Assembly (NCBI RefSeq): GCF_006912135.1
Contig: NZ_VIRS01000019.1
Span: 1-64,000, forward strand
DNA length: 64,000 bases
From: Cryptosporangium phraense
GTDB taxonomy: Bacteria > Actinomycetota > Actinomycetes > Mycobacteriales > Cryptosporangiaceae
Direction: 5' to 3'
Shown here piece by piece: positions 11,836 to 21,141 of this stretch (the first letter of the stretch is position 1; each line of letters begins with the position of its first letter). The notes beneath the pieces are model-generated. The model did not search any database and was not told where the DNA came from. It worked only from the letters and a program-made list of their open reading frames with translations. Both the position numbers and the translations under genes were made by a program.

Positions 11836-13785
11836 ATGCCGGACTCCCTCCTCACGCTCCACCCGCCTCGGCTCCACCGGCCACAGCGGACCGAACGGCT
11901 CCGGCTCTCGCACCGCCCCGCGCTCGACGGGCTGCGTGCGGTCGCGGTCGTCGTCGTGCTGCTGTTCCACGGTGGAGTGTCGTGGCTGCCCGGCGGCTGG
12001 CTCGGCGTCGACGCGTTCTTCGTCCTCTCCGGCTACCTGATCACGACGCTGCTGCTGGCCGAGCACGAGCGGACCGGCCGGATCCGGCTGGCCGCGTTCT
12101 GGGGCCGCCGGGCCCGGCGGCTGCTGCCCGCGCTGCTCGCGGTGGTGACCGCGGTGGTCGGGTGCGCGCACTGGCTGGTTCCGCCCGAGGAACGGCAACC
12201 GCTCGGTCCGGACGCGGTGAGCGCGCTGGCGTACGTCGCGAACTGGCGGATGCTGCACCGGGGCGACGGCTACGCGGCCCTCACCGCGTCGCCGTCCCCG
12301 CTCCAGCACACCTGGTCGCTCGCTCTCGAGGAGCAGTTCTACCTGCTCTGGCCGCTGGTGATCGTCGCCGCGCTGGCCTGGTGGCGCGGCCGGGGGCTGC
12401 TGCTGGGCACGCTCGTCGCGGCGGGCGCCTCGGCCGCCGCGATGGCCCTGCTCTACGTCCCCGACGCCGAACCGGCCCGGGCCTACTACGGCAGCGACAC
12501 CCGCGCGTTCGGGCTGCTGGCCGGGTGCGCGCTGGCGCTCGGCGCCCGGCGGTACCGGGCGGTGCACGCGGCCCCGCGGCGGTGGTCACTGCCGGTGGCG
12601 ATCGCGCTCGGGGTCCTCGCCGCCGCGCTGTTGCTGCTCGACGACAGCGGACCCGCGCTCTACCGGGGTGGTCTGCTCGCCGTCGTCGGCGCGGTCGCGG
12701 TCGTGATCGGCGCCGCCGATCGGCGTCCGGACGGACGGCTCGCCGCCGTGCTCGCGATCCGTCCACTGCCGGAGATCGGACGCGTCTCGTACGAGCTCTA
12801 CCTCTGGCACTGGCCGACGTTCCTCTTTCTGGACGCCGAGCGCAGCGGGCTGTCCGGCGTACCGCTGCTGGCCGCCCGATGCGTGGTCACCGCGGTGCTG
12901 GCGATGGCCACCTACCGGCTGCTCAGCCGGCCGGTCCGGATCCGCCGCTGGCCCCGGACCCGGCCGGTGCTCGTCACGCTCACCGCGGTCGCCGCCGTCG
13001 CGTCGGCGTCGATCGTGCTCACCCGGCCGGCGCAACCCCGGGAGCCGGCCCGCCCGGCCGCGCTGCCGAGCGTCCAGAGCAGTACCTTGCTCAGCCGACC
13101 GGGACGGGAACCGGGACCGCTGCGGATCACGGTCTTCGGCGACTCGGTCGCCAACAGCCTGGCCGTCGGCCTGCCCCGGCTGCGGAACGGGACGCTGACC
13201 AACCGGTCGCTGATCGGCTGCGGGATCGCCCGGTCGGGACGGGTGCACAACGCGGCCAGGACCCAGTCGCCCTACGCGCGCTGTCCGCGCTGGGACGCGT
13301 ACTGGGCCGCGGGCGTCCGGGCCGACCGGCCGGACTTGGCGCTGGTCGTGCTGGCCCGGTGGGAGGTGCTCGACCGCGAGCTGGACGGCCGCTGGCAGCA
13401 CATCGGCGAACCGGCGTTCGACGCGTACCTGCGCCGGGAGCTGGCGACGATGGTCCGGGTGCTGACCGCGGGCGGCGCCCGGATCGTGCTGGCGACCGCG
13501 CCGTTCAACCACCGGTACGAGCGCCGGGACGGCAGCCTCTACCCGGAGGACGACCCGGCCCGGATGGACGCCTGGAACCGGATGCTCCGGGACACCGCGG
13601 CGGCCGACCCGGCCCGGATCCGGATCGTCGACCTCGGGGCCCGGCTCTGCCCGGACGGACGGTATACCGCCGACGTCGACGGCGTTCACCTGCGCAGCGA
13701 CGGACTCCACCTCACGGCGGGCGGAGTCCGCGACTACGTGGCCCCGTGGCTCCTGCCTCAGCTCACCGAGGCCGCTTCCGGCTGA
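11836..13785 (+). CDS. acyltransferase with C-terminal SGNH domain (OafA/YrhL type)
   Basis: A 649-residue membrane protein. Residues about 25-370 are an acyltransferase-3 domain with about ten membrane segments; RPALDGLRAVAVVVVLLFH carries the conserved H after the first helix. A linker is followed by an extracytoplasmic SGNH-hydrolase-like domain at about 430-645 (FGDSVANS block I; DGVHLRSDGLHLT block V). Such proteins O-acetylate cell-wall or exported polysaccharides. The ATG at 11836 is 47 bp after the CheR stop. Its 3' end overlaps the convergent gene by 28 bp. The acceptor is unknown. Confidence 0.85.
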   Translation: MPDSLLTLHPPRLHRPQRTERLRLSHRPALDGLRAVAVVVVLLFHGGVSWLPGGWLGVDAFFVLSGYLITTLLLAEHERTGRIRLAAFWGRRARRLLPALLAVVTAVVGCAHWLVPPEERQPLGPDAVSALAYVANWRMLHRGDGYAALTASPSPLQHTWSLALEEQFYLLWPLVIVAALAWWRGRGLLLGTLVAAGASAAAMALLYVPDAEPARAYYGSDTRAFGLLAGCALALGARRYRAVHAAPRRWSLPVAIALGVLAAALLLLDDSGPALYRGGLLAVVGAVAVVIGAADRRPDGRLAAVLAIRPLPEIGRVSYELYLWHWPTFLFLDAERSGLSGVPLLAARCVVTAVLAMATYRLLSRPVRIRRWPRTRPVLVTLTAVAAVASASIVLTRPAQPREPARPAALPSVQSSTLLSRPGREPGPLRITVFGDSVANSLAVGLPRLRNGTLTNRSLIGCGIARSGRVHNAARTQSPYARCPRWDAYWAAGVRADRPDLALVVLARWEVLDRELDGRWQHIGEPAFDAYLRRELATMVRVLTAGGARIVLATAPFNHRYERRDGSLYPEDDPARMDAWNRMLRDTAAADPARIRIVDLGARLCPDGRYTADVDGVHLRSDGLHLTAGGVRDYVAPWLLPQLTEAASG

Positions 13786-14396
13786 ACGGGCGCCCCGGTG
13801 GACGCCGGGCCGGCGTCGTGGCCGAGGCCGGACAGGCGGAGCGTGCCGGCCGGGGCGATCCCGAGCCGCTCGGCCGCGAGCAGGAACGCCTCCGCGTACG
13901 GCGAGTGGACGGTCGAGTCGTGCACCAGGTCCCAGTCGATCTGCTCCCGCAACGCGCGGGCCAGCGGCAACACGGTCGACAGGTCGCAGTAGTGCTCGGT
14001 GAACGCCAGTAGCTTGTTGAGCAGCAGGTCGGTCGCGGCCAGCACCGGCATCCGCACCGCCTCGACCGGCATCTCCTCGGCCCGCTCGAGCATCTCGACC
14101 GTGACCTCGCGCTCCGACGGCCGGAAGATCAGGTCGACCAGGCAGTCGCCGTCGTACACCTTGACCAGCCAGTCCTCCGGCGGCTGCTCGGACCGGAGCC
14201 CGGCCTCGACGCACGCGCCGAGCGCGGACTGGACGTCCGACGGACGGATCAGGAAGTCCACGTCGTGCGTGGAGGCGGGCCCGCCTCTGGCGTAGACCGC
14301 GAATCCCCCGGCGAGTGCGAACGGCAGGTCCGCCGCCTTCAGAGTGCTCGCCACCCGCTTCATGGTCACGATCAGCGCGTCCGGGTCTCCGCTCAT
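13758..14396 (-). CDS. nucleotidyltransferase-like protein
   Basis: A 212-residue protein. The N-terminal part, LPFALAGGFAVYARGG then THDVDFLI near residues 22-50, has the GG and DxD pattern of the pol-beta-like nucleotidyltransferase superfamily, as in AbiEii or MNT-like proteins. The next Asp may lie in VYDGDCLVDLIF near residue 85. A helical C-terminal half follows. There is no adjacent antitoxin-like gene, so an AbiE-type toxin is not supported. The ATG has GGGGGAG upstream and a SigB-like promoter 31 bases before. It overlaps the acyltransferase 3' end. Confidence 0.65.
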   Translation of the reverse strand: MSGDPDALIVTMKRVASTLKAADLPFALAGGFAVYARGGPASTHDVDFLIRPSDVQSALGACVEAGLRSEQPPEDWLVKVYDGDCLVDLIFRPSEREVTVEMLERAEEMPVEAVRMPVLAATDLLLNKLLAFTEHYCDLSTVLPLARALREQIDWDLVHDSTVHSPYAEAFLLAAERLGIAPAGTLRLSGLGHDAGPASTGAPVQPEAASVS

Positions 14397-14565: not shown

Positions 14566-15300
14566 ATGCTCACCTGCGAGATCGACCGGACGTCCCCGAT
14601 CACCGTCGTGGCGGTGGACGGTGACCTGCGGCTCGGCACCGTGTCCCAGGTGCGCGCGGCGCTGCTGAAATGCCTGGCCGAGTGCCCGGACGCCGTCCTG
14701 GTCGACCTCTCCCGCACCGTCATCGGGGCCCCGGTGGCGCTGACCGTCTTCGCCGCGGTGAGCCGCCGCGCCGCGGTCTGGCCGCCGGTGCCGCTGGTGC
14801 TCGCGGCCCGGCCACCGGGAGTTCGTCAGCAGCTCGCGACCGTGTCCCGGGCCTGGGGCCTCCCGGTGCACGAGTCGGTCGAGGCGGCGCTGAGCGCAGC
14901 GCCGTTCGGACCGCCACCGGTGCGGCGGGTCGAGCGGAGGCTCCGGCCGGGGACGATGGCCCTGCCGCAGGCCCGGACGCTGGTCGCCGACGCCTGCACC
15001 GAGTGGGGGCTCGGCGACTTCACGATGCCGGCCGAGCTGATCATGTCCGAGTTGGCCAGCAACGCGGTCCAGCACGCGGGCACCGACCTCACGGTCGCGG
15101 TGATCCTCCGGCGCGGTCTGCTGCACCTCACGGTGGCCGACGGGAACCCCGATCCGCCGCAGAAGCCGCGCGACTTCCCGTCCGTCGGCGCGCTCACTGG
15201 GCGCGGGTTGATGCTGGTGGAAGAGTTCGCGACGGCCTGGGGGCACCTGCCCATCGACGCAGGCAAAGTGGTCTGGGCGACACTGCGCGTGAGCGGCTGA
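14566..15300 (+). CDS. STAS domain fused to RsbW-like ATPase
   Basis: A 244-residue fusion. Residues about 1-110 look like a STAS (anti-sigma antagonist) domain, but the usual phosphorylated Ser motif is replaced by VDLSRTVIGAPVALTVF. Residues about 125-244 form a GHKL ATPase: ELASNAVQHAG is the N-box and GRGLMLVEEFATAWG the G-box. Anti-sigma kinase and antagonist are normally separate proteins, so this may be a self-contained switch. The ATG at 14566 follows GCGAGG; 74 upstream codons in the same frame have no similarity. No sigma factor is adjacent. Confidence 0.8.
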   Translation: MLTCEIDRTSPITVVAVDGDLRLGTVSQVRAALLKCLAECPDAVLVDLSRTVIGAPVALTVFAAVSRRAAVWPPVPLVLAARPPGVRQQLATVSRAWGLPVHESVEAALSAAPFGPPPVRRVERRLRPGTMALPQARTLVADACTEWGLGDFTMPAELIMSELASNAVQHAGTDLTVAVILRRGLLHLTVADGNPDPPQKPRDFPSVGALTGRGLMLVEEFATAWGHLPIDAGKVVWATLRVSG

Positions 15301-15343
15301 ACACTTCGGCATAGAAGCGTTCCGACCGGGGACATGAGCCGGT

Positions 15344-16306
15344 GTGCGAACCGATTACGTCCTGCCCGGTGAACTCGCGGGGCTCGCCCCCGCCGACGCG
15401 TTCCTCGCCGCCCGCAAGGCCGGCGTGCTCGATCTTCCGCTTCCCGGGGCCGGCCGGACCCGGGAGCGGTTCGCGGTGCTCGGCGCGCTCGGGCGCGCCG
15501 ACCCGGTGCTCGCCCGGCTGGCCGAGGGCCATGCGGACGCGGTGGCGATCCTGGCCGAGCTCGGCGGTCCGGAGCCCGGGGACGCGTCGTGGGGAGTATG
15601 GGCGGCGGTTCCCCGCTCGGTGACCGCGGTGCGCCGGGGCTCCGGGTGGGAGTTGACGGGGGACCGGCCGTGGTGCTCGGGGGCCGGGGTGTGCACTCGG
15701 GCGCTGGTCACCGCGGCCGGCGACGAGGGGATCCGGCTGTTCGCGGTCGACGTCGGCGGGCCCGGGGTCACACCGCTCGACGGCACCTGGCCCGCGGTCG
15801 GGATGGCCGGCAGCGACAGCCGGACCGTCCGGTTCGACCGGGCACCGGCCGAGCCGGTCGGTGACGTCGGCCAGTACGTCGCCCGGCCCGGCTTCTGGGC
15901 CGGTGGAGCCGGGGTGGCCGCCTGCTGGCACGGCGCCGCCGTCGGGGTGGCCCAGCCCCTGCTGGACGCCGGGACCGACCCGCACCTGCTGGCCCACCTC
16001 GGTGCGGTGGACACTGCGCTCGGGGCGTCGAGCGCGCTGCTGGACGAGGTCGCGGCCCTGATCGACGACGACTTCACCGCGGAGGCGCTGCGCCGGCCGG
16101 TCCGGCGGGTCCGGGCCGCCGCCGAGGCGGCCGCCACCGCCACGCTCGACCACGTCGGGCGGGCGCTCGGCGCGAAACCGCTCTGCCAGGACGCCGCCCA
16201 CGCCCACCGGGTCGCCGATCTCACGGTCTACCTCCGCCAGAGCCACGCCGAACGCGACCTCGCCGACCTCGGTTCCGATGTTCTCGAGAACGGATCCGGC
16301 TGGTGA
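15344..16306 (+). CDS. acyl-CoA dehydrogenase-like protein
   Basis: A 320-residue protein with the middle and C-terminal pattern of the acyl-CoA dehydrogenase superfamily: a beta domain with VTAVRRGSGWELTGDRPWCSGA near residues 92-112, then a helical domain (RAAAEAAATATLDHVGRALG near 255-275). It is shorter than the usual 380-400 residues because the N-terminal helical domain is reduced. FAD binding is probable and the substrate unknown. The start is GTG at 15344. It is the first gene of a four-gene cassette, overlapping the PIG-L gene by 4 bp (GTGA). Confidence 0.75.
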   Translation: MRTDYVLPGELAGLAPADAFLAARKAGVLDLPLPGAGRTRERFAVLGALGRADPVLARLAEGHADAVAILAELGGPEPGDASWGVWAAVPRSVTAVRRGSGWELTGDRPWCSGAGVCTRALVTAAGDEGIRLFAVDVGGPGVTPLDGTWPAVGMAGSDSRTVRFDRAPAEPVGDVGQYVARPGFWAGGAGVAACWHGAAVGVAQPLLDAGTDPHLLAHLGAVDTALGASSALLDEVAALIDDDFTAEALRRPVRRVRAAAEAAATATLDHVGRALGAKPLCQDAAHAHRVADLTVYLRQSHAERDLADLGSDVLENGSGW

Positions 16307-17016
16307 CCCCGCTGATCCACGGCACCGGCACGGCGGAGGAGCACTGGCGGGCCTGGGACACCGACTGGCCGCTCCTCGACCTGCCCGATGGAGCCCCGCT
16401 GGTCGTCGCGCCCCACCCGGACGACGAGGTCCTCGGCGCCGGCGGCCTGCTGGCCCGGCTTCCCGACGCCGAGGTCGTCGCCGTCACCGACGGCGAGGCG
16501 TCCCACCCCCACAGCACCGTGCTCACCCGGCCGGCGATGGCCGCCGTCCGCCGGACCGAGACCGACGAGGCCCTGACCCGGCTCGGACACCAGACGCCGA
16601 CGATCCACCGCCTGGCCCACCCCGACGGCGCGATCGACGAGATAGCGCTGACCACCGCACTCGAGCGGCTCCTGACCCCGGGCCGCTGGTGCCTGGCCAG
16701 CTGGCGCGGCGACGGCCACCCCGACCACGAGGCCGTCGGCCGCGCCGCCGCCGCGGCTTGCGCCACGACCGGCGCGATCCTGGTCGAGTACCCGATCTGG
16801 ACCTGGCACTGGGCCTCCCCGGGCGACCCCCGCGTGCCCTGGGACCGGTGCCGCCGCCTCCCGCTCAGCGACGCCGAACGCGCGGCCAAGCGGCACGCGC
16901 TCGACGCGTTCGTCTCCCAGACCCGGCCGCTGGGCCCCGACCCGGACGACGCCCCGATCCTGCCCCCGCACGTCCTGGCCCGCTTCGACCGGCCGGTGGA
17001 GGTGTTCTTCGCGTGA
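16303..17016 (+). CDS. PIG-L family N-deacetylase
   Basis: A 237-residue protein with the PIG-L/LmbE signature: PHPDDEVLGAGG near residues 37-48 and HPDHEAVG near 145-152, giving the His-Asp-His zinc site. Family members remove N-acetyl groups from N-acetylglucosaminyl conjugates, as MshB and BshB do. The start is GTG overlapping the upstream stop (GTGA). Its own stop overlaps the methyltransferase start in the same way, indicating translational coupling. The substrate is probably an N-acetylated sugar conjugate (inference). Confidence 0.85.
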   Translation: MTPLIHGTGTAEEHWRAWDTDWPLLDLPDGAPLVVAPHPDDEVLGAGGLLARLPDAEVVAVTDGEASHPHSTVLTRPAMAAVRRTETDEALTRLGHQTPTIHRLAHPDGAIDEIALTTALERLLTPGRWCLASWRGDGHPDHEAVGRAAAAACATTGAILVEYPIWTWHWASPGDPRVPWDRCRRLPLSDAERAAKRHALDAFVSQTRPLGPDPDDAPILPPHVLARFDRPVEVFFA

Positions 17017-17612
17017 GCCTGCCGACCGAATACTTCGACGAGATGTACCGGGCCGACGGCGACCCCTGGAAGTTCGAGACCCGCTGGTACGAGGAGCGCA
17101 AGTACGCGCTGACGCTGGCCGCGCTCCCCCGTCGGCGGTACCGCTCGGCGTTCGAGCCCGGTTGCTCGATCGGCGTGCTCTCGGCCGCCCTCGCGCCTCG
17201 CTGCGACGCGCTGCTCTCCACCGACGTCGCGGCCAAGGCGGTCGCCGCCACCCGCGCGCGGGTCCCGGCCGCCCGGGTCGAGCAGCGACGGATCCCCGAG
17301 GACTTCCCCGACGGTCCGTTCGACCTGATCGTGCTGTCCGAGGTCGGCTACTACCTGGACTCCGGCGCCCTGGCCCGGCTCGTCGACGCGACGGTCGCCG
17401 CGCTGGAACCCGGCGGCGACCTCGTCCTCGTGCACTGGCGTCACCCGGTCGCCGACTACCCGCTCGACGGCGACACCGTGCACGACGCGTTCGCCGGGCG
17501 TCCGGAGCTGGAACGGACGGTGGCGCACGTCGAGGACGACTTCCGCCTCGAGGTCTACGCCCGCACCCCGCCGGCCGCGCGGTCGGTCGCCGCGGCCGAG
17601 GGCCTGTGCTGA
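17013..17612 (+). CDS. NodS-like SAM-dependent methyltransferase
   Basis: A 199-residue class I methyltransferase. It begins YFDEMYRADGDPWKFETRWY, typical of NodS-type N-methyltransferases, followed by the SAM-binding FEPGCSIGVLSAAL near residues 48-61 and the acidic residue in LLSTDV. Then comes FDLIVLSEVGYYLD near 103-116. The GTG start at 17013 overlaps the PIG-L stop (GTGA). In the cassette it could methylate the amine freed by the deacetylase, as NodS follows NodB, but this is inference. Confidence 0.85.
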   Translation: MSLPTEYFDEMYRADGDPWKFETRWYEERKYALTLAALPRRRYRSAFEPGCSIGVLSAALAPRCDALLSTDVAAKAVAATRARVPAARVEQRRIPEDFPDGPFDLIVLSEVGYYLDSGALARLVDATVAALEPGGDLVLVHWRHPVADYPLDGDTVHDAFAGRPELERTVAHVEDDFRLEVYARTPPAARSVAAAEGLC

Positions 17613-18274
17613 CGCGGATCGCCGTCGTGGTGCCCGCCCACGACGAAGAACAACTGCTACCGGCCTGTCTGGACGCTCTGCGCGAAGCCAGCCGCCGCGC
17701 ACCGCTCCCCGTCGACGTGCTGGTCGTCCTCGACTCGTGCGCGGACGGATCGGCTCGCATCGCCGCCGAGGCCGGCGTCCGCACGATGGAGGTGCAGGCG
17801 CGGAACGCGGGTCAGGCCCGGGCCGCGGGAGCGGCCGCGATGCTCGCCGACGACGGCGGGAACACCTGGCTGGCCTGCACCGACGCGGACTCCCGGGTGT
17901 CGCAGGACTGGCTGGTCGAGCAACTGCGCCTGGCCGAGGCCGGGGCGGACGTGGTGACCGGCGTCGTCGACGTGGACGACTGGTCGGAGTGGCCGCCCTC
18001 GACCGTGTCGGCGTACCGGGACGCCTACCGGCGCGGGATCCGGGGCGAGCAGCACGCTCACGTGCACGGCGCGAACCTCGGCCTGACCGGCGACGCGTAC
18101 CGCCGGGCCGGCGGGTTCCGGCCGGTCGCGGTGGGCGAGGACCAGGCGCTGGTCCTCGCGGCCGCGGACGCGGGGCTGCGGGTGGTGGGCAGCACGCGGG
18201 TGCGCGTGCTGACCAGCGCACGCCGGGACGCCCGGGCCGCCGACGGCTTCAGCGGCTACCTGCACGCCCTGTAG
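17606..18274 (+). CDS. family 2-like glycosyltransferase
   Basis: A 222-residue GT-A fold protein. The nucleotide-sugar site starts with VVVPAHDEEQLLPACLDAL, and CTDADSRVSQDWL near residue 90 carries the DxD-like motif. GANLGLTGDAYRRAGGF near 150-166 is the acceptor-loop region of GT2 enzymes. The GTG start at 17606 overlaps the methyltransferase 3' end by 7 bp. It is the last gene of the cassette. The sugar and acceptor are unknown; no membrane segments are seen, so it is cytoplasmic. Confidence 0.8.
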   Translation: MLTRIAVVVPAHDEEQLLPACLDALREASRRAPLPVDVLVVLDSCADGSARIAAEAGVRTMEVQARNAGQARAAGAAAMLADDGGNTWLACTDADSRVSQDWLVEQLRLAEAGADVVTGVVDVDDWSEWPPSTVSAYRDAYRRGIRGEQHAHVHGANLGLTGDAYRRAGGFRPVAVGEDQALVLAAADAGLRVVGSTRVRVLTSARRDARAADGFSGYLHAL

Positions 18275-18283
18275 GGCTGTTGG

Positions 18284-18631
18284 TCATTCCGTGTCGGCGG
18301 TGGTGAGCCCGGTACCGCCCGGGTTCGTGAGGTCCGGTTCGCCGGGCTGCCGGCCGGACACACCCGAGCCGCCGGTCGGAACGCTGGAGTCGGCCGGGGG
18401 CAAACCGGTCGGCCCGCTCGGCAGCCCGGTGTCCCCGGATCCGCTACCCGGCGCTTCCCTGGCCGGCCCGGCTTCGACGTCCTGATCGCCGTGCTCGCGC
18501 TCGTCGGCCGCCGACGACAGCGTGCCGCTCTCGGCCGGAGCCTGCTCGGCGATCCCGGCGCCCGCACCGGGATCGTTCGGGTTCTCGACGTCGGCGTACG
18601 CCGGAGGCGGCTGGGTCTCGTCACTCGTCAT
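18284..18631 (-). CDS. low-complexity acidic hypothetical protein
   Basis: A 115-residue protein rich in Gly, Pro, Asp, Glu, Ser and Thr, with no hydrophobic segment and no domain I recognise; probably disordered. The ATG at 18631 has only a weak ribosome site. It lies 9 bp from the convergent glycosyltransferase and just downstream of another small gene. Codon use is GC-rich, so an overlapping artefact remains possible. Confidence 0.45.
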   Translation of the reverse strand: MTSDETQPPPAYADVENPNDPGAGAGIAEQAPAESGTLSSAADEREHGDQDVEAGPAREAPGSGSGDTGLPSGPTGLPPADSSVPTGGSGVSGRQPGEPDLTNPGGTGLTTADTE

Positions 18632-18674
18632 TCTGGGGACATGTCCACCGAGCAGACGGGGAAACACTGACGAA

Positions 18675-18887
18675 CTAGGGCCGGCCCCAGGTCGAGCGGA
18701 TCGCGGTGAGGTAGCCGTCTTCTCGGCGAGGTTCGCCGTGGAACGCGCCGGCCGTCGGCGGGGCGAAGAACGCGTGCCGCTCGGCCCGCGCCCAGGCCGC
18801 CGAAGCCGACACCCACCGCGACGCCCGCCGCCGCCACCCGGCCAGCCGCAGCGCGAAGCCGACCCGCGCAATCGAAACCTCGGTCAT
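18675..18887 (-). CDS. small Trp/Arg-rich hypothetical protein
   Basis: A 70-residue basic protein with several Trp and Arg (RLAGWRRRASRWVSASAAW) and no clear domain. The ATG at 18887 is preceded by AGGGGAGAAC, a good ribosome site, which is the main support. It lies downstream of the terminator at 18980-19010 on the same strand and so would need its own promoter. Confidence 0.5.
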   Translation of the reverse strand: MTEVSIARVGFALRLAGWRRRASRWVSASAAWARAERHAFFAPPTAGAFHGEPRREDGYLTAIRSTWGRP

Positions 18888-19024: not shown

Positions 19025-19294
19025 TCAGTCACCAGGCCAAGTCCCGGTGGAACGAGCCCAGGCCTGCGCGCCGGCCCGGTCGATCGCAGCCTTGACCACG
19101 CCGTAGATCGCACCCTGGATTGCGGACGCCAGTAGCACCTCGCGCCACGAGTATTCACTCTGGGTAGCGCCCGGCGCATCGTCCTCTCCGGCCACCCTCT
19201 TCCACACCTGCTTGAAGATGGCTCCGGCGACGAGCCCGCCGACCATACCGCTGGCCAGCCCGACCGGCCGGTAGGCGAGGGCGGAAGCCTTCAT
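19025..19294 (-). CDS. DUF4235 membrane protein
   Basis: An 89-residue protein matching DUF4235: a Gly-rich N-terminal membrane segment (VGLASGMVGGLVAGAIFKQVWK) and a second hydrophobic segment near residues 52-72. The role is unknown. Last gene of an apparent four-gene operon; the ATG overlaps the DUF3618 stop (ATGA). A terminator follows. Confidence 0.85.
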   Translation of the reverse strand: MKASALAYRPVGLASGMVGGLVAGAIFKQVWKRVAGEDDAPGATQSEYSWREVLLASAIQGAIYGVVKAAIDRAGAQAWARSTGTWPGD

Positions 19295-19698
19295 CGGCGG
19301 GCCGCCTTGCGCAGGATCCGCTCGGTCCTGGTCGTCGCCCGGCGGGACCGGATCGCGCGTCCACCCACGACCGCGGCCACCACCGCGACGACCGCACCGG
19401 CGACGGCGAGCAGCTTCGGCCGCGACTCCGGTGCCTTCAGCGTGTCGGCGGTCTGGCCTACCTGGACCTTGGCCTGGGCGGTCTTCTCGCCGGCCTTCTC
19501 GCGCAGCTGCGCGACCTTGACCTGGGCCTGCTCCTTGGTCTGGGCGACCTTGGCCTGGGCCTGGGCCTTCACGTCGGCCTTGGCGGCCAGCGCCTCGACC
19601 GTGTCACCGAGCTCGGCCCGGATCTCGGCGATCTCCGCGCGGAGCTGCGCCGGGTCCTTGGCGGGCTCGGTCGTGGCCGAACCCTTGTCGGCACTCAT
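19291..19698 (-). CDS. DUF3618 protein with Ala/Lys/Gln-rich helix and one membrane segment
   Basis: A 135-residue protein. The N-terminal AEIAEIRAELGDTVEALAAK block (residues about 20-40) is the DUF3618 signature. A long Lys/Ala/Gln-rich amphipathic helix with repeated AQ-KV units follows to about 85, then a transmembrane helix near 92-112 and a basic tail. The function is unknown; in actinobacteria the family often sits next to holin-X-like and DUF4235 genes, as here. The ATG at 19698 overlaps the upstream stop by 4 bp. Confidence 0.85.
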   Translation of the reverse strand: MSADKGSATTEPAKDPAQLRAEIAEIRAELGDTVEALAAKADVKAQAQAKVAQTKEQAQVKVAQLREKAGEKTAQAKVQVGQTADTLKAPESRPKLLAVAGAVVAVVAAVVGGRAIRSRRATTRTERILRKAARR

Positions 19699-20132
19699 CG
19701 GTGGACACTCTCCTTCACGGTGTTGATGTCCTTCTTCACGCCGCTGACGGCTTCGGCGGGAACCGGCGGCGTCGCCTGCTGGATCTCCTTCTTGCCGGTC
19801 AGCGCGAGCACGCCGGCGACGGCGAACAGCACGACGGCGATGATCAGCGCGGACGCCCACACCGGGAGGACGACGGCCAGCCCGGCGATCGCGGCGGTCA
19901 CCAGCGCGCCGACGCCGTACAGCGCGACGACACCCGCTCCGCCGAACATGCCGGCGCCGAGGCCCGCCTTCTTGCCCTTCTCGGTCAGCTCGAGCTGCGC
20001 GAGTCTCAGCTCGTCCTTGACGAGCGTGGAGACCTGATCGGACAGACGGGTGACGAGTTCGGCCGTCGACGCGTGCGCCGGGTCCAGACGCCCGGGAGAA
20101 GGGGTGGGCGCCGGCTCGGTCTGCGTTGCCAT
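19695..20132 (-). CDS. actinobacterial holin-X / phage holin superfamily-III-like membrane protein
   Basis: A 145-residue protein: a cytoplasmic N-terminal helix (LSDQVSTLVKDELRLAQLEL near residues 30-50), two membrane segments near 58-110, and a C-terminal charged helix. This matches the putative actinobacterial holin-X family (DUF1469-like). The genes around it are chromosomal envelope genes, not phage, so a lysis role is unlikely. It is 28 bp downstream of the YihY gene and overlaps DUF3618. Confidence 0.85.
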   Translation of the reverse strand: MATQTEPAPTPSPGRLDPAHASTAELVTRLSDQVSTLVKDELRLAQLELTEKGKKAGLGAGMFGGAGVVALYGVGALVTAAIAGLAVVLPVWASALIIAVVLFAVAGVLALTGKKEIQQATPPVPAEAVSGVKKDINTVKESVHR

Positions 20133-20160
20133 GGGACTCCTTCCATCAAAACTCGGAAAT

Positions 20161-21141
20161 TCAGGTGAGCGAGCCTTCGGTGCTCGGACCCACTTCGTCG
20201 GCCTTGGTAGCGCCCCGGCTGCCGAGGGGCTGTTCCGGCCCGGTGGTGCTGTCGACCGTGGTCTGGGCCTCCAGCTCGGCGTTCAGTTCGGCGCCGAACA
20301 GAATCGCCATGCAGGAGATGTAGAGCCAGAGGTTGAGGACGATTACCCCGGCGAGCGCCCCGTAAGTCTTGTTGTAGCTACCGAAGTTGTTGACGTAGAA
20401 CGAGAAGCCGGCCGACGCGATCAGCCAGAGGGCGGTGGCGACCACCGCACCCCAGGAGAGCCAGCGGAACTTCGCGTGCTGACGGTCGGGGGCGAACCGG
20501 TAGAGCAGGCTCAACCCGAACATCATGAGCACCGCGAGCAGCAACCACCGGCCGATGTTCACGGTCGCGCTGGCGAACGAGCCCAGGTGGACCGCATCCA
20601 TCACCGGCGGCACCACCGCGACGAGCAGAATCGCCACGACGAAGGCGACGATCGCGCCGAGCGTCATGAGGATGGCCAGTCCGCGCTTCTTCAGGAAGTT
20701 GCGCTCGTCGACCTCGTCGTACGCGGTGTTGACGGCCTGGATCATGCCGTTCATGCCACCGGACGCGCTCCACAGCACCGCGGCCAGCGAGATGATCAGG
20801 CCGATCGACAGCCCCTTGCCACTCGCGCCGGTCGCCGCCGTGATCGGGTCGGTGATCACCGATTTCACGTCGTTGGACAGGCTCGCGGTGAGGTCGTCGA
20901 TCTGGTCGGCGATCACGTCCGGGCTGGCTACCAGCCCGTACACGGTGATCGCGCCGATCGCTGCCGGGATCAGCGCCAGCCAGGCGTAGAACGCGGCCGC
21001 GGCGGCGGCGGTCGAGATCTGGTCGTCCTTGAACTCCCGGACCGTGCGGACCAGCACGTCTTTCCAGCCCCGGGCCGGAATCTGAGTGGGCTTCGTCGCT
21101 TGGCGTCCGCGCGTGTTCCCGCCCGCGGAGACAGCGGTCAT
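20161..21141 (-). CDS. YihY/BrkB-family inner membrane protein
   Basis: A 326-residue protein with six membrane segments and the family signature AAAAAFYAWLALIPAAIGA near residues 45-63, plus SGGMNGMIQAVNTAYDE near 125-141. The C-terminal tail is hydrophilic. Members were once annotated as ribonuclease BN; their real role is unknown, with a transport or envelope function likely. First gene of the operon ending at the 18980-19010 terminator. GGGTAT on the minus strand at 21194-21189 could be a -10, but no matching -35 is seen. Confidence 0.85.
   Translation of the reverse strand: MTAVSAGGNTRGRQATKPTQIPARGWKDVLVRTVREFKDDQISTAAAAAAFYAWLALIPAAIGAITVYGLVASPDVIADQIDDLTASLSNDVKSVITDPITAATGASGKGLSIGLIISLAAVLWSASGGMNGMIQAVNTAYDEVDERNFLKKRGLAILMTLGAIVAFVVAILLVAVVPPVMDAVHLGSFASATVNIGRWLLLAVLMMFGLSLLYRFAPDRQHAKFRWLSWGAVVATALWLIASAGFSFYVNNFGSYNKTYGALAGVIVLNLWLYISCMAILFGAELNAELEAQTTVDSTTGPEQPLGSRGATKADEVGPSTEGSLT

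Follow-up and report, generated by a model that had tools for sequence, protein, structure and literature searches.

We undertook a computational analysis of four overlapping genes in a window of 64,000 nucleotides from Cryptosporangium phraense (contig NZ_VIRS01000019.1, positions 1 to 64,000), and the best reading of this cassette is a previously undescribed pathway to an N-methylated amino-sugar conjugate, which is perhaps a stress protectant. As a whole, the proposal that the four genes are one unit whose short pathway of glycosylation, deacetylation, N-methylation and flavin oxidation leads to a product for osmotic, drying or oxidative stress has a probability that we place just on the favorable side of even. 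A soluble GT2 glycosyltransferase (GT) would glycosylate an acceptor, most likely with an N-acetylhexosamine supplied as a nucleotide sugar. A PIG-L enzyme would then strip the acetyl group, a family-level assignment that the replacement of this enzyme by a CE4 deacetylase supports, and a NodS-like enzyme, also assigned at the family level and supported by its fusion to the deacetylase, would methylate the freed amine. A flavoprotein with the acyl-CoA dehydrogenase (ACAD) fold would oxidize the conjugate, and for this step an O2-using monooxygenase or oxidase is more probable than an acyl-CoA dehydrogenase. The product may be a small molecule or a glycan for survival of osmotic, drying or oxidative stress. 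The cassette has a fixed gene set and recognizable chemistry, yet no published function was found for it in the literature covered (most subscription papers being out of reach and supplements not included).

Gene layout and conservation

The four genes lie at positions 15344–18274 of the window, all on the (+) strand and each with a GTG start, and successive genes overlap by 4, 4 and 7 bp. The features are as follows:

15301..15343, + strand: 43-bp gap between the upstream HATPase-type gene (stop ends at 15300) and the cassette
15344..16306, + strand: ACAD-fold flavoprotein gene, first in the row (320 aa; PF02770)
16303..17016, + strand: PIG-L/LmbE (CE14) zinc N-deacetylase gene (237 aa; PF02585)
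17013..17612, + strand: NodS-family class I SAM methyltransferase gene (199 aa; PF05401)
17606..18274, + strand: GT2-family glycosyltransferase gene, GT-A fold (222 aa; PF00535)

The coordinates, direction, GTG starts and 4–7 bp overlaps given in the original prediction were all reproduced in the sequence, and its PIG-L, NodS-like and GT2-like labels were borne out by Pfam scores above cut-off (PF02585, 69.8 bits versus 28.2; PF05401 (NodS), 46 versus 24; PF00535, 61 versus 23.3). Since the genes overlap, they probably constitute one transcription and translation unit; a consensus scan of 15301..15343 found no sigma-70-like promoter.

That the genes are neighbors by chance was rejected. All four were present together in 73 of 80 loci, which were the best 80 of 241 methyltransferase matches and were fetched by methyltransferase similarity alone, and it was the original prediction itself that had proposed the search for this gene order across genomes. 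These data support the conclusion that the four genes form one conserved unit. The gene orders in the 73 complete loci were ACAD-PIGL-MT-GT (40), GT-ACAD-PIGL-MT (32) and ACAD-GT-PIGL-MT (1), and the seven incomplete loci (ACAD-MT-GT, 2; PIGL-MT-GT, 2; MT only, 2; GT-ACAD-MT, 1) include five with less than 8 kb of sequence around the methyltransferase. The ACAD and PIGL genes overlap in 55 of 72 loci and the PIGL and MT genes in 64 of 75, with 13 of those 64 being in-frame fusions, counts in which individual overlaps are approximate because start codons in the relatives were picked by script. No fifth widely conserved gene was found beside the cassette in the 80 loci: the flavoprotein, GT and methyltransferase clusters each span 27–30 taxon labels, and other gene clusters occur in five at most. 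Gene-tree distances for the 73 loci have pairwise correlations of r = 0.64 to 0.81, which partly reflect common species history, and 0 of 500 permutations were as high.

The methyltransferase was present in 49 of 396 sampled Actinomycetota genomes (~1 in 8), and the cassette is present also in Pseudomonadota, Deinococcota and one cyanobacterial plasmid. In separate genome samples, also anchored on the methyltransferase, the stretch contained this gene together with the flavoprotein, a GT and a deacetylase in 19 of 20 cases among the longer actinobacterial stretches and in 13 of 20 among the proteobacterial ones; PIG-L or the GT was undetected in some loci of these samples and of the 80-locus set. 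The further actinobacterial sample consisted of 19 genomes chosen from the 49 positives (10 being inferred Rubrobacteraceae) and one of the window's genus, and the Pseudomonadota sample of 20 of 30 genomes, those with the strongest methyltransferase matches except G041. In 8 of the 30 Pseudomonadota loci the methyltransferase adjoins neither a flavoprotein nor a deacetylase gene, and the weak methyltransferase matches there (E 2e-31 to 9e-27) are probably other NodS-domain proteins. Groups that withstand drought and radiation, among them Deinococcus, Rubrobacter and Acinetobacter, share the cassette.

Stress genes near the cassette

The stress role is suggested by gene neighborhoods in Pseudomonadota and by published Acinetobacter expression, rather than by data from actinobacteria. 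In Pseudomonadota, a stress marker (trehalose, catalase, Ku/LigD or DUF421 genes, a set chosen after viewing the same loci) was near the cassette methyltransferase in 11 of 20 stretches versus 0 of 17 control stretches. One of the 11 marker-positive stretches (L151) has the methyltransferase alone, and the count for those with the flavoprotein is 10 of 19. Plasmid loci had a marker in 5 of 11 cases. The stress-gene link in actinobacteria is weak: a marker was near in 13 of 80 loci versus 0 of 20 controls (p = 0.065) and in 1 of 20 of a second actinobacterial sample, and none was identified in the neighborhood of the window's cassette.

In Acinetobacter baumannii, the expression table of PMC5660220 has the four-gene operon ACICU_02432-02435 down 31- to 62-fold in two colistin-dependent mutants, with otsA and otsB falling together with it, and lpxC or lpxA is altered in these mutants. 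In the flanking-gene list of PMC6240043, genes with the cassette's names stand in a row next to the photoreceptor gene blsA. Judged by names and order, both are the same cassette, and the accessible parts of these two papers give that table and that list and no function. The A. baumannii locus that we fetched has all four genes at 33–41% identity to those of the window, and its names and order suggest that it is ACICU_02432-02435. The cassette goes unmentioned in the accessible main text of the stress and desiccation papers PMC12742793, PMC13232832, PMC6181384, PMC7142981, PMC10325922 and PMC9239045, and the accessible parts of PMC11760712, PMC7660261 and PMC3788728 hold nothing bearing on it.

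At one locus, treZ (partial), malQ, treY, glgX and the flavoprotein, PIG-L and methyltransferase genes lie on one strand, with open reading frames that overlap or abut. Since the cassette is found with treXYZ in some bacteria and with otsBA in others, and these trehalose routes are unrelated, its product could be trehalose-based. A new class of stress protectant, in the form of an amino-sugar glycoside that is N-methylated (possibly N-oxidized) and perhaps has trehalose or a trehalose precursor as its base, is in our view a rather improbable product. If a protectant is indeed made, part of the survival of drying and oxidation in several hardy bacteria would be explained.

The glycosyltransferase and a possible link to surface glycans

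Structure prediction, which had been proposed for all four proteins, gave a confident GT-A fold for the GT (AlphaFold2 pLDDT 93.8) with GT2-type structural neighbors, and D93-A94-D95 and E178-D179 (DxD and catalytic acid) are invariant in 39 sequences. The nearest profile relatives are PcManGT (40.6 bits) and undecaprenyl-phosphate sugar transferases (36.9 bits), and the structural neighbors include the surface-glycan and teichoic-acid GTs WrtF, TarS and TarP. Both sets of relatives favor an alternative in which the cassette adds and modifies one amino sugar on a surface polysaccharide, lipid-linked glycan or lipopolysaccharide and no free small molecule is made, as do three more GT genes in both Novosphingobium loci and the tabulated drop of the Acinetobacter operon in colistin-dependent lpxC/lpxA mutants (PMC5660220). 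This alternative is unlikely, although it carries appreciable weight, as no other gene, export genes included, accompanies the cassette in more than five taxon labels, the window's four proteins have no strongly hydrophobic 19-residue stretch (best 1.38), and the cassette hosts differ widely in envelope. On the Kyte-Doolittle scale, no stretch of 19 residues in the window GT itself exceeds 1.18, and 18 of 78 related GTs have one above 1.8; the QxxRW motif is absent from the window GT and present in 1 of the 78. Searching with the GT structure returned GT2 enzymes of a general kind, and the case for a relation to compatible-solute GTs (glucosyl-3-phosphoglycerate synthase, 25 bits) gained nothing from it.

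Proposed deacetylation and N-methylation

The zinc motif of the PIG-L protein (HPDDE ... HxDH; H38-P39-D40-D41-E42 and D137, H139, D141, H142) is invariant in 42 sequences, and its nearest profile relatives are TT1542 and the diacetylchitobiose, bacillithiol and mycothiol deacetylases. In the inferred Rubrobacteraceae (one actinobacterial family), PIG-L was undetected and a CE4 (NodB-superfamily) deacetylase is in the row at all 10 of the longer loci, 9 of which also have the GT, the flavoprotein and an additional FAD oxidoreductase; the Rubrobacter CE4 protein matches PF01522 at 92 bits. Two of 15 loci of this family with short flanks are without a CE4 gene inside the flank, and one locus under another taxon label (f23) also has such a gene. 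The CE4 deacetylase in the place of PIG-L is good evidence for N-deacetylation as a genuine step of the pathway, and the swap between two deacetylase families constitutes a natural experiment that names this step. Together with this replacement, the PIG-L/methyltransferase fusions in 13 of 75 loci place the two enzymes in one pathway.

The nearest profile relatives of the methyltransferase are the uncharacterized 4isc, then NodS, then phosphoethanolamine N-methyltransferases; its PDB matches include 4isc at 167 bits and NodS (3ofj) at 45 bits, and on these sequence matches it is probably an N-methyltransferase. The entry 4isc, which we take to be from P. syringae, is of the same family as the cassette's enzyme and is a structural entry only, with no function given. 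Given the fusions, the CE4 replacement and the nearest relatives of both enzymes, the leading reading is, as originally predicted, that an amino sugar is first N-deacetylated and then N-methylated. A substrate other than an amino sugar, with PIG-L acting on some different N-acyl compound and the cassette making or degrading an unrelated metabolite, is about as improbable as the trehalose glycoside. At least one PIG-L relative with another reaction, 4-oxalmesaconate hydratase (31.5 bits), is among the profile matches, but the nearest named relatives are amino-sugar deacetylases, the GT is conserved together with PIG-L, and an acetamido sugar is the substrate that best suits an exchange of PIG-L for a CE4 polysaccharide deacetylase.

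Deacetylation of an amino-sugar conjugate has counterparts in the assembly of mycothiol (MshA/MshB) and bacillithiol (BshA/BshB), where a GT-made GlcNAc conjugate is deacetylated by a PIG-L enzyme, as proposed for the cassette. The cassette differs from both in having a GT2 rather than a GT4, no ligase, and an added methyltransferase and flavoprotein. NodB and NodS likewise carry out N-deacetylation and then N-methylation of an amino sugar, with a methyltransferase of the same family, and NodB belongs to the CE4 superfamily matched by the deacetylase of the Rubrobacteraceae-type loci, whereas the window deacetylase is PIG-L and not CE4 (NodB-type). In contrast to the Nod-factor genes, the cassette has no NodC-type chitin-oligomer synthase or NodA and has the added flavoprotein; Pfam found no NodA acyltransferase among the window's four genes. 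Against the NodS equivalog NF041650 the methyltransferase reaches 56.9 bits, well below the cut-off of 300. Membership in the Nod-factor pathway was rejected on that score, on the GT type and on the absence of a conserved extra gene, so that the close parallel first drawn was lost (the GT being without QxxRW or a hydrophobic segment) and the chemical one kept, with the suggested ending in oxidation being plausible. TMG-chitotriomycin contains N-trimethylglucosamine, and nothing relevant to it as a precedent was found in the literature covered.

The flavoprotein

Only PF02770, the middle domain (34.4 bits versus a cut-off of 33.3), of the three-domain acyl-CoA dehydrogenase signature (PF02771, PF02770 and PF00441) was matched in the window protein, and a Deinococcus relative matches PF02771 and PF00441. 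The AlphaFold2 model is confident (pLDDT 94.9) and has the complete acyl-CoA dehydrogenase fold. The top Foldseek rows are DszC, MsuC and TdsC. In the profile search, 11 PDB sequences reach E ≤ 1e-6, and DszC, TdsC, MsuC or KijD3 account for 7 of them. DszC, TdsC and MsuC are ACAD-fold flavin monooxygenases, and KijD3 and DnmZ are amino-sugar N-oxygenases. All five have in common with the cassette flavoprotein the overall fold and the missing Glu of the EGT motif, and DszC and TdsC also a K-x-W/F-C-S-G-A-like motif, although the cassette protein is shorter than DszC/KijD3-type enzymes and has ~20% identity to them. At the head of the profile search, however ranked by type the others may be, stand two "acyl-CoA dehydrogenase type 2 domain" proteins, and in fold Z-scores monooxygenases and true acyl-CoA dehydrogenases are tied, with ColB1 in the top row.

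The catalytic Glu of the C-terminal EGT motif was found in 0 of 20 aligned cassette flavoproteins, versus an EGT motif in 7 of 15 ACAD-like proteins of the window's own genome (26 loci, 8 repeats, 18 distinct, with three in long open frames omitted, one of which ends in EGT). Some acyl-CoA dehydrogenase classes carry the catalytic Glu at another place. The flavoprotein is probably a flavin-dependent oxygenase or oxidase and not a canonical acyl-CoA dehydrogenase, and the original description of it as acyl-CoA dehydrogenase-like stands as a family label, with the missing EGT Glu and the monooxygenase-type profile matches speaking against it as an activity. A true acyl-CoA (or acyl-carrier) dehydrogenase whose pathway yields an N-acylated, Nod-factor-like lipid conjugate is very improbable: the fold (Z-scores of 31 to 32 to ColB1 and to short-chain acyl-CoA dehydrogenases) speaks for it, as does the fact that the 11 profile matches include ColB1, a dehydrogenase, and an acyl-CoA dehydrogenase from Thermus, but the EGT count, the length of 320 residues (~40–100 fewer than the matched chains of 362–416) and the lack of a widely conserved acyltransferase or carrier gene nearby speak against it.

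The Deinococcus flavoprotein has an extra N-terminal part of ~400 residues, with no Pfam match and no PDB sequence match at 0.01. As an impression only, this extension resembles a glycosidase.

Conservation of the cassette

The cassette of Cryptosporangium phraense is a real, conserved and undescribed pathway module, and a better one than was first described. The claim of four overlapping genes in one direction with GTG starts was borne out at 15344–18274 (+), where Pfam and NCBIfam models identified the following features, which overlap successively by 4, 4 and 7 bp:

15344–16306, +, ACAD-fold protein (flavoprotein), GTG start; domain match to the middle domain only
16303–17016, +, PIG-L deacetylase, GTG start
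17013–17612, +, NodS-family methyltransferase, GTG start
17606–18274, +, GT2 glycosyltransferase, GTG start

Neither a sigma-70-like promoter nor a terminator was seen in 15100–18700. To either side lie genes for a HATPase-type protein and for DUF3618, Holin-X, BrkB and STAS proteins, the DUF3618, Holin-X and BrkB genes forming a row on the opposite strand (19291–21141, –). Within 11836–14396, an acyltransferase-3/SGNH gene overlaps the end of an opposite nucleotidyltransferase-like gene (13758–14396, –) by 28 bp.

The search for the same gene order across genomes that accompanied the original prediction was carried out by scanning genome contigs with the methyltransferase alone and taking the best 80 of 241 loci, 73 of which carry the complete set in a span of a few kilobases. 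Two orders predominate in these 73 loci, with the glycosyltransferase last in 40 and first in 32. When the flanking ORFs of the same best 80 of 241 loci were clustered, the flavoprotein was found under 30 of the taxon labels that we assigned on the basis of record titles, the glycosyltransferase and the methyltransferase under 27 each, and PIG-L, including fused forms, under 22; every further cluster was confined to five labels or fewer. Distances between loci correlate among the four gene trees (r = 0.64–0.81, 73 loci), a figure to which the species history shared by the loci contributes. Within short flanks, a flavoprotein gene accompanies the methyltransferase at 28 of the 30 best actinobacterial loci (the window included) and at 22 of the 30 best proteobacterial ones, and all four functions occur in 19/20 longer actinobacterial and 13/20 longer proteobacterial stretches, chosen from the methyltransferase-anchored sample.

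Predicted deacetylation and methylation

The proposed logic of amino-sugar deacetylation followed by methylation is well supported at the family level, as judged from profiles, gene fusions and the exchange of one deacetylase for another. Across 42 sequences the PIG-L zinc motif does not vary. Among named structures, the PIG-L profile matches diacetylchitobiose deacetylases best, and bacillithiol and mycothiol deacetylases come lower. The methyltransferase profile ranks 4isc first, NodS next (90 bits) and then phosphoethanolamine N-methyltransferases. PIG-L and methyltransferase form a single open frame in 13 of 75 loci (L038:2411–3733 and 12 others, mostly in Microbacteriaceae genera).

The strongest single piece of evidence for a genuine N-deacetylation step is the replacement of PIG-L by an unrelated N-deacetylase, a CE4 (NodB-superfamily) enzyme, in f32, a family-level group taken as Rubrobacteraceae since the match coordinates of genome G416 equal those in a Rubrobacter indicoceani plasmid:

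L187–L196 and L106:5960–10611, Rubrobacteraceae-type version: CE4 deacetylase, flavoprotein, methyltransferase, FAD oxidoreductase and GT2, without detected PIG-L

In all ten longer f32 loci the CE4 gene is in the same gene row and PIG-L was not detected; nine also have the flavoprotein, the glycosyltransferase and the extra FAD oxidoreductase, and in L191 just CE4 and methyltransferase were seen. A CE4 gene was within short flanks in 13/15 f32 loci and in one locus of another group (f23). The Rubrobacter protein matches PF01522 at 92 bits and contains TFDDGPD, HxxxH and RPPW stretches, which we take to be CE4-type motifs.

The flavoprotein

The AlphaFold2 model of the flavoprotein (pLDDT 94.9) covers the whole ACAD fold in 320 residues, versus 362–416 in structurally matched chains. 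DszC, MsuC and TdsC led the Foldseek search, with KijD3 at rank 14. Structural alignment with VIA-align gave Z 32.4 with ColB1 (rmsd 2.3, 311 aligned) and Z 30.8 with DszC 4jek (rmsd 2.5, 311 aligned); fold alone cannot decide the class, because the Z-scores of monooxygenases and true dehydrogenases differ by no more than about two units. The sequence profile leans towards monooxygenases: seven of the 11 PDB sequences at E ≤ 1e-6 are TdsC, DszC, MsuC or KijD3, the two best scorers are named acyl-CoA dehydrogenase type 2 domain protein, and the other two are ColB1 and a Thermus acyl-CoA dehydrogenase. In addition, the Glu of the EGT motif, usually catalytic in acyl-CoA dehydrogenases, is absent from all 20 cassette members in an alignment that included 15 ACAD-like proteins from the same genome (EGT in seven, GGT in three, neither in five). 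From this leaning and the missing Glu we infer the type of oxidation, and the flavoprotein is a predicted oxygenase or oxidase. Suggestive precedents are KijD3 and DnmZ, two enzymes that oxidise the nitrogen of amino sugars.

Deinococcus flavoproteins (L101:5042–7291, L102:2193–4532) are extended at the N terminus by about 400 residues; the extension had no Pfam or PDB sequence match in L101, and its residues recall a glycosidase barrel.

The glycosyltransferase

The glycosyltransferase model (pLDDT 93.8) has a GT-A fold, and its DxD and catalytic acid are invariant among aligned relatives; QxxRW and a strongly hydrophobic segment are both absent from the window's protein. Structurally it resembles GT2 enzymes in general (WrtF: Z 22.2, rmsd 2.8, 193 aligned), and fold, motifs and neighbours point to no particular donor or acceptor.

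Distribution

The methyltransferase profile matched 49/396 Actinomycetota genomes (E ≤ 1e-30) and 30/299 Pseudomonadota (E ≤ 1e-25), 22 of these 30 beside a flavoprotein. It also matched 3/4 genomes of the window's genus. Among annotated plasmids, the whole set occurs on two from Acinetobacter, two from Novosphingobium and one from Deinococcus radiophilus, and by similarity on a Nostoc plasmid, with the glycosyltransferase on the other strand in the latter two species. Flavoprotein, PIG-L and methyltransferase were seen on D. radiodurans and Roseomonas plasmids; a Cupriavidus plasmid has flavoprotein, methyltransferase and glycosyltransferase with a separate PIG-L gene near, and a Paraburkholderia plasmid methyltransferase and glycosyltransferase alone. 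Metagenome-assembled contigs labelled Acidobacteria, Dormiibacterota and Myxococcaceae have three, three and four cassette genes; the last lies closest to Pseudomonas in each of the four gene trees and may be misassigned.

In the Novosphingobium version (L105:3057–9412, L208), an HPII-type catalase and three extra glycosyltransferase genes surround flavoprotein, PIG-L and methyltransferase. A. baumannii NZ_CP077849.1 (3.66 Mb) is labelled a plasmid yet appears chromosome-sized, and has two annotated resistance genes about 4.5–7 kb from the cassette.

Stress-related neighbours

Stress markers (trehalose, catalase, Ku/LigD or DUF421 genes) occur near the cassette in 11/20 Pseudomonadota stretches (12–19.5 kb) versus 0/17 same-genome controls (Fisher p = 2e-4), an association that is a lead rather than a clean test, because these same loci supplied the markers and the control stretches were located close to contig starts, two of them being short. 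One marked stretch (L151) has the methyltransferase without flavoprotein, and its exclusion gives 10/19. Proteobacteria-derived markers were near the cassette in 13/80 actinobacterial loci versus 0/20 controls (p = 0.065) and in 1/20 of a second actinobacterial set; none of the window cassette's listed neighbours is such a marker.

In L139 a single strand carries, in this order, treZ (partial), malQ, treY, glgX, flavoprotein, PIG-L and methyltransferase, and their ORFs overlap or abut. In L146 and L153 the flavoprotein comes after otsBA in the same orientation, and trehalose synthesis genes are close to the cassette on the two Acinetobacter plasmids. The available part of one study describes an A. 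baumannii operon, ACICU_02432–02435 (glycosyltransferase, methyltransferase, LmbE and acyl-CoA dehydrogenase-like), whose expression was down 31- to 62-fold in two colistin-dependent mutants, where otsA and otsB fell as well (PMC5660220). The available part of another places a glycosyltransferase, methyltransferase, LmbE and acyl-CoA dehydrogenase row beside the photoreceptor gene blsA in A. baumannii (PMC6240043). A substrate, a product and a stress role are what we infer for the cassette.

Two proteobacterial loci next to treY and malQ have another PIG-L gene after the cassette (L137:7523–8287, L139:10308–11120). A long ORF with the appearance of a sucrose-synthase-type glycosyltransferase (L154:5075–7459) lies upstream of a related methyltransferase–flavoprotein pair, in a stretch shared with DUF421 and catalase genes.
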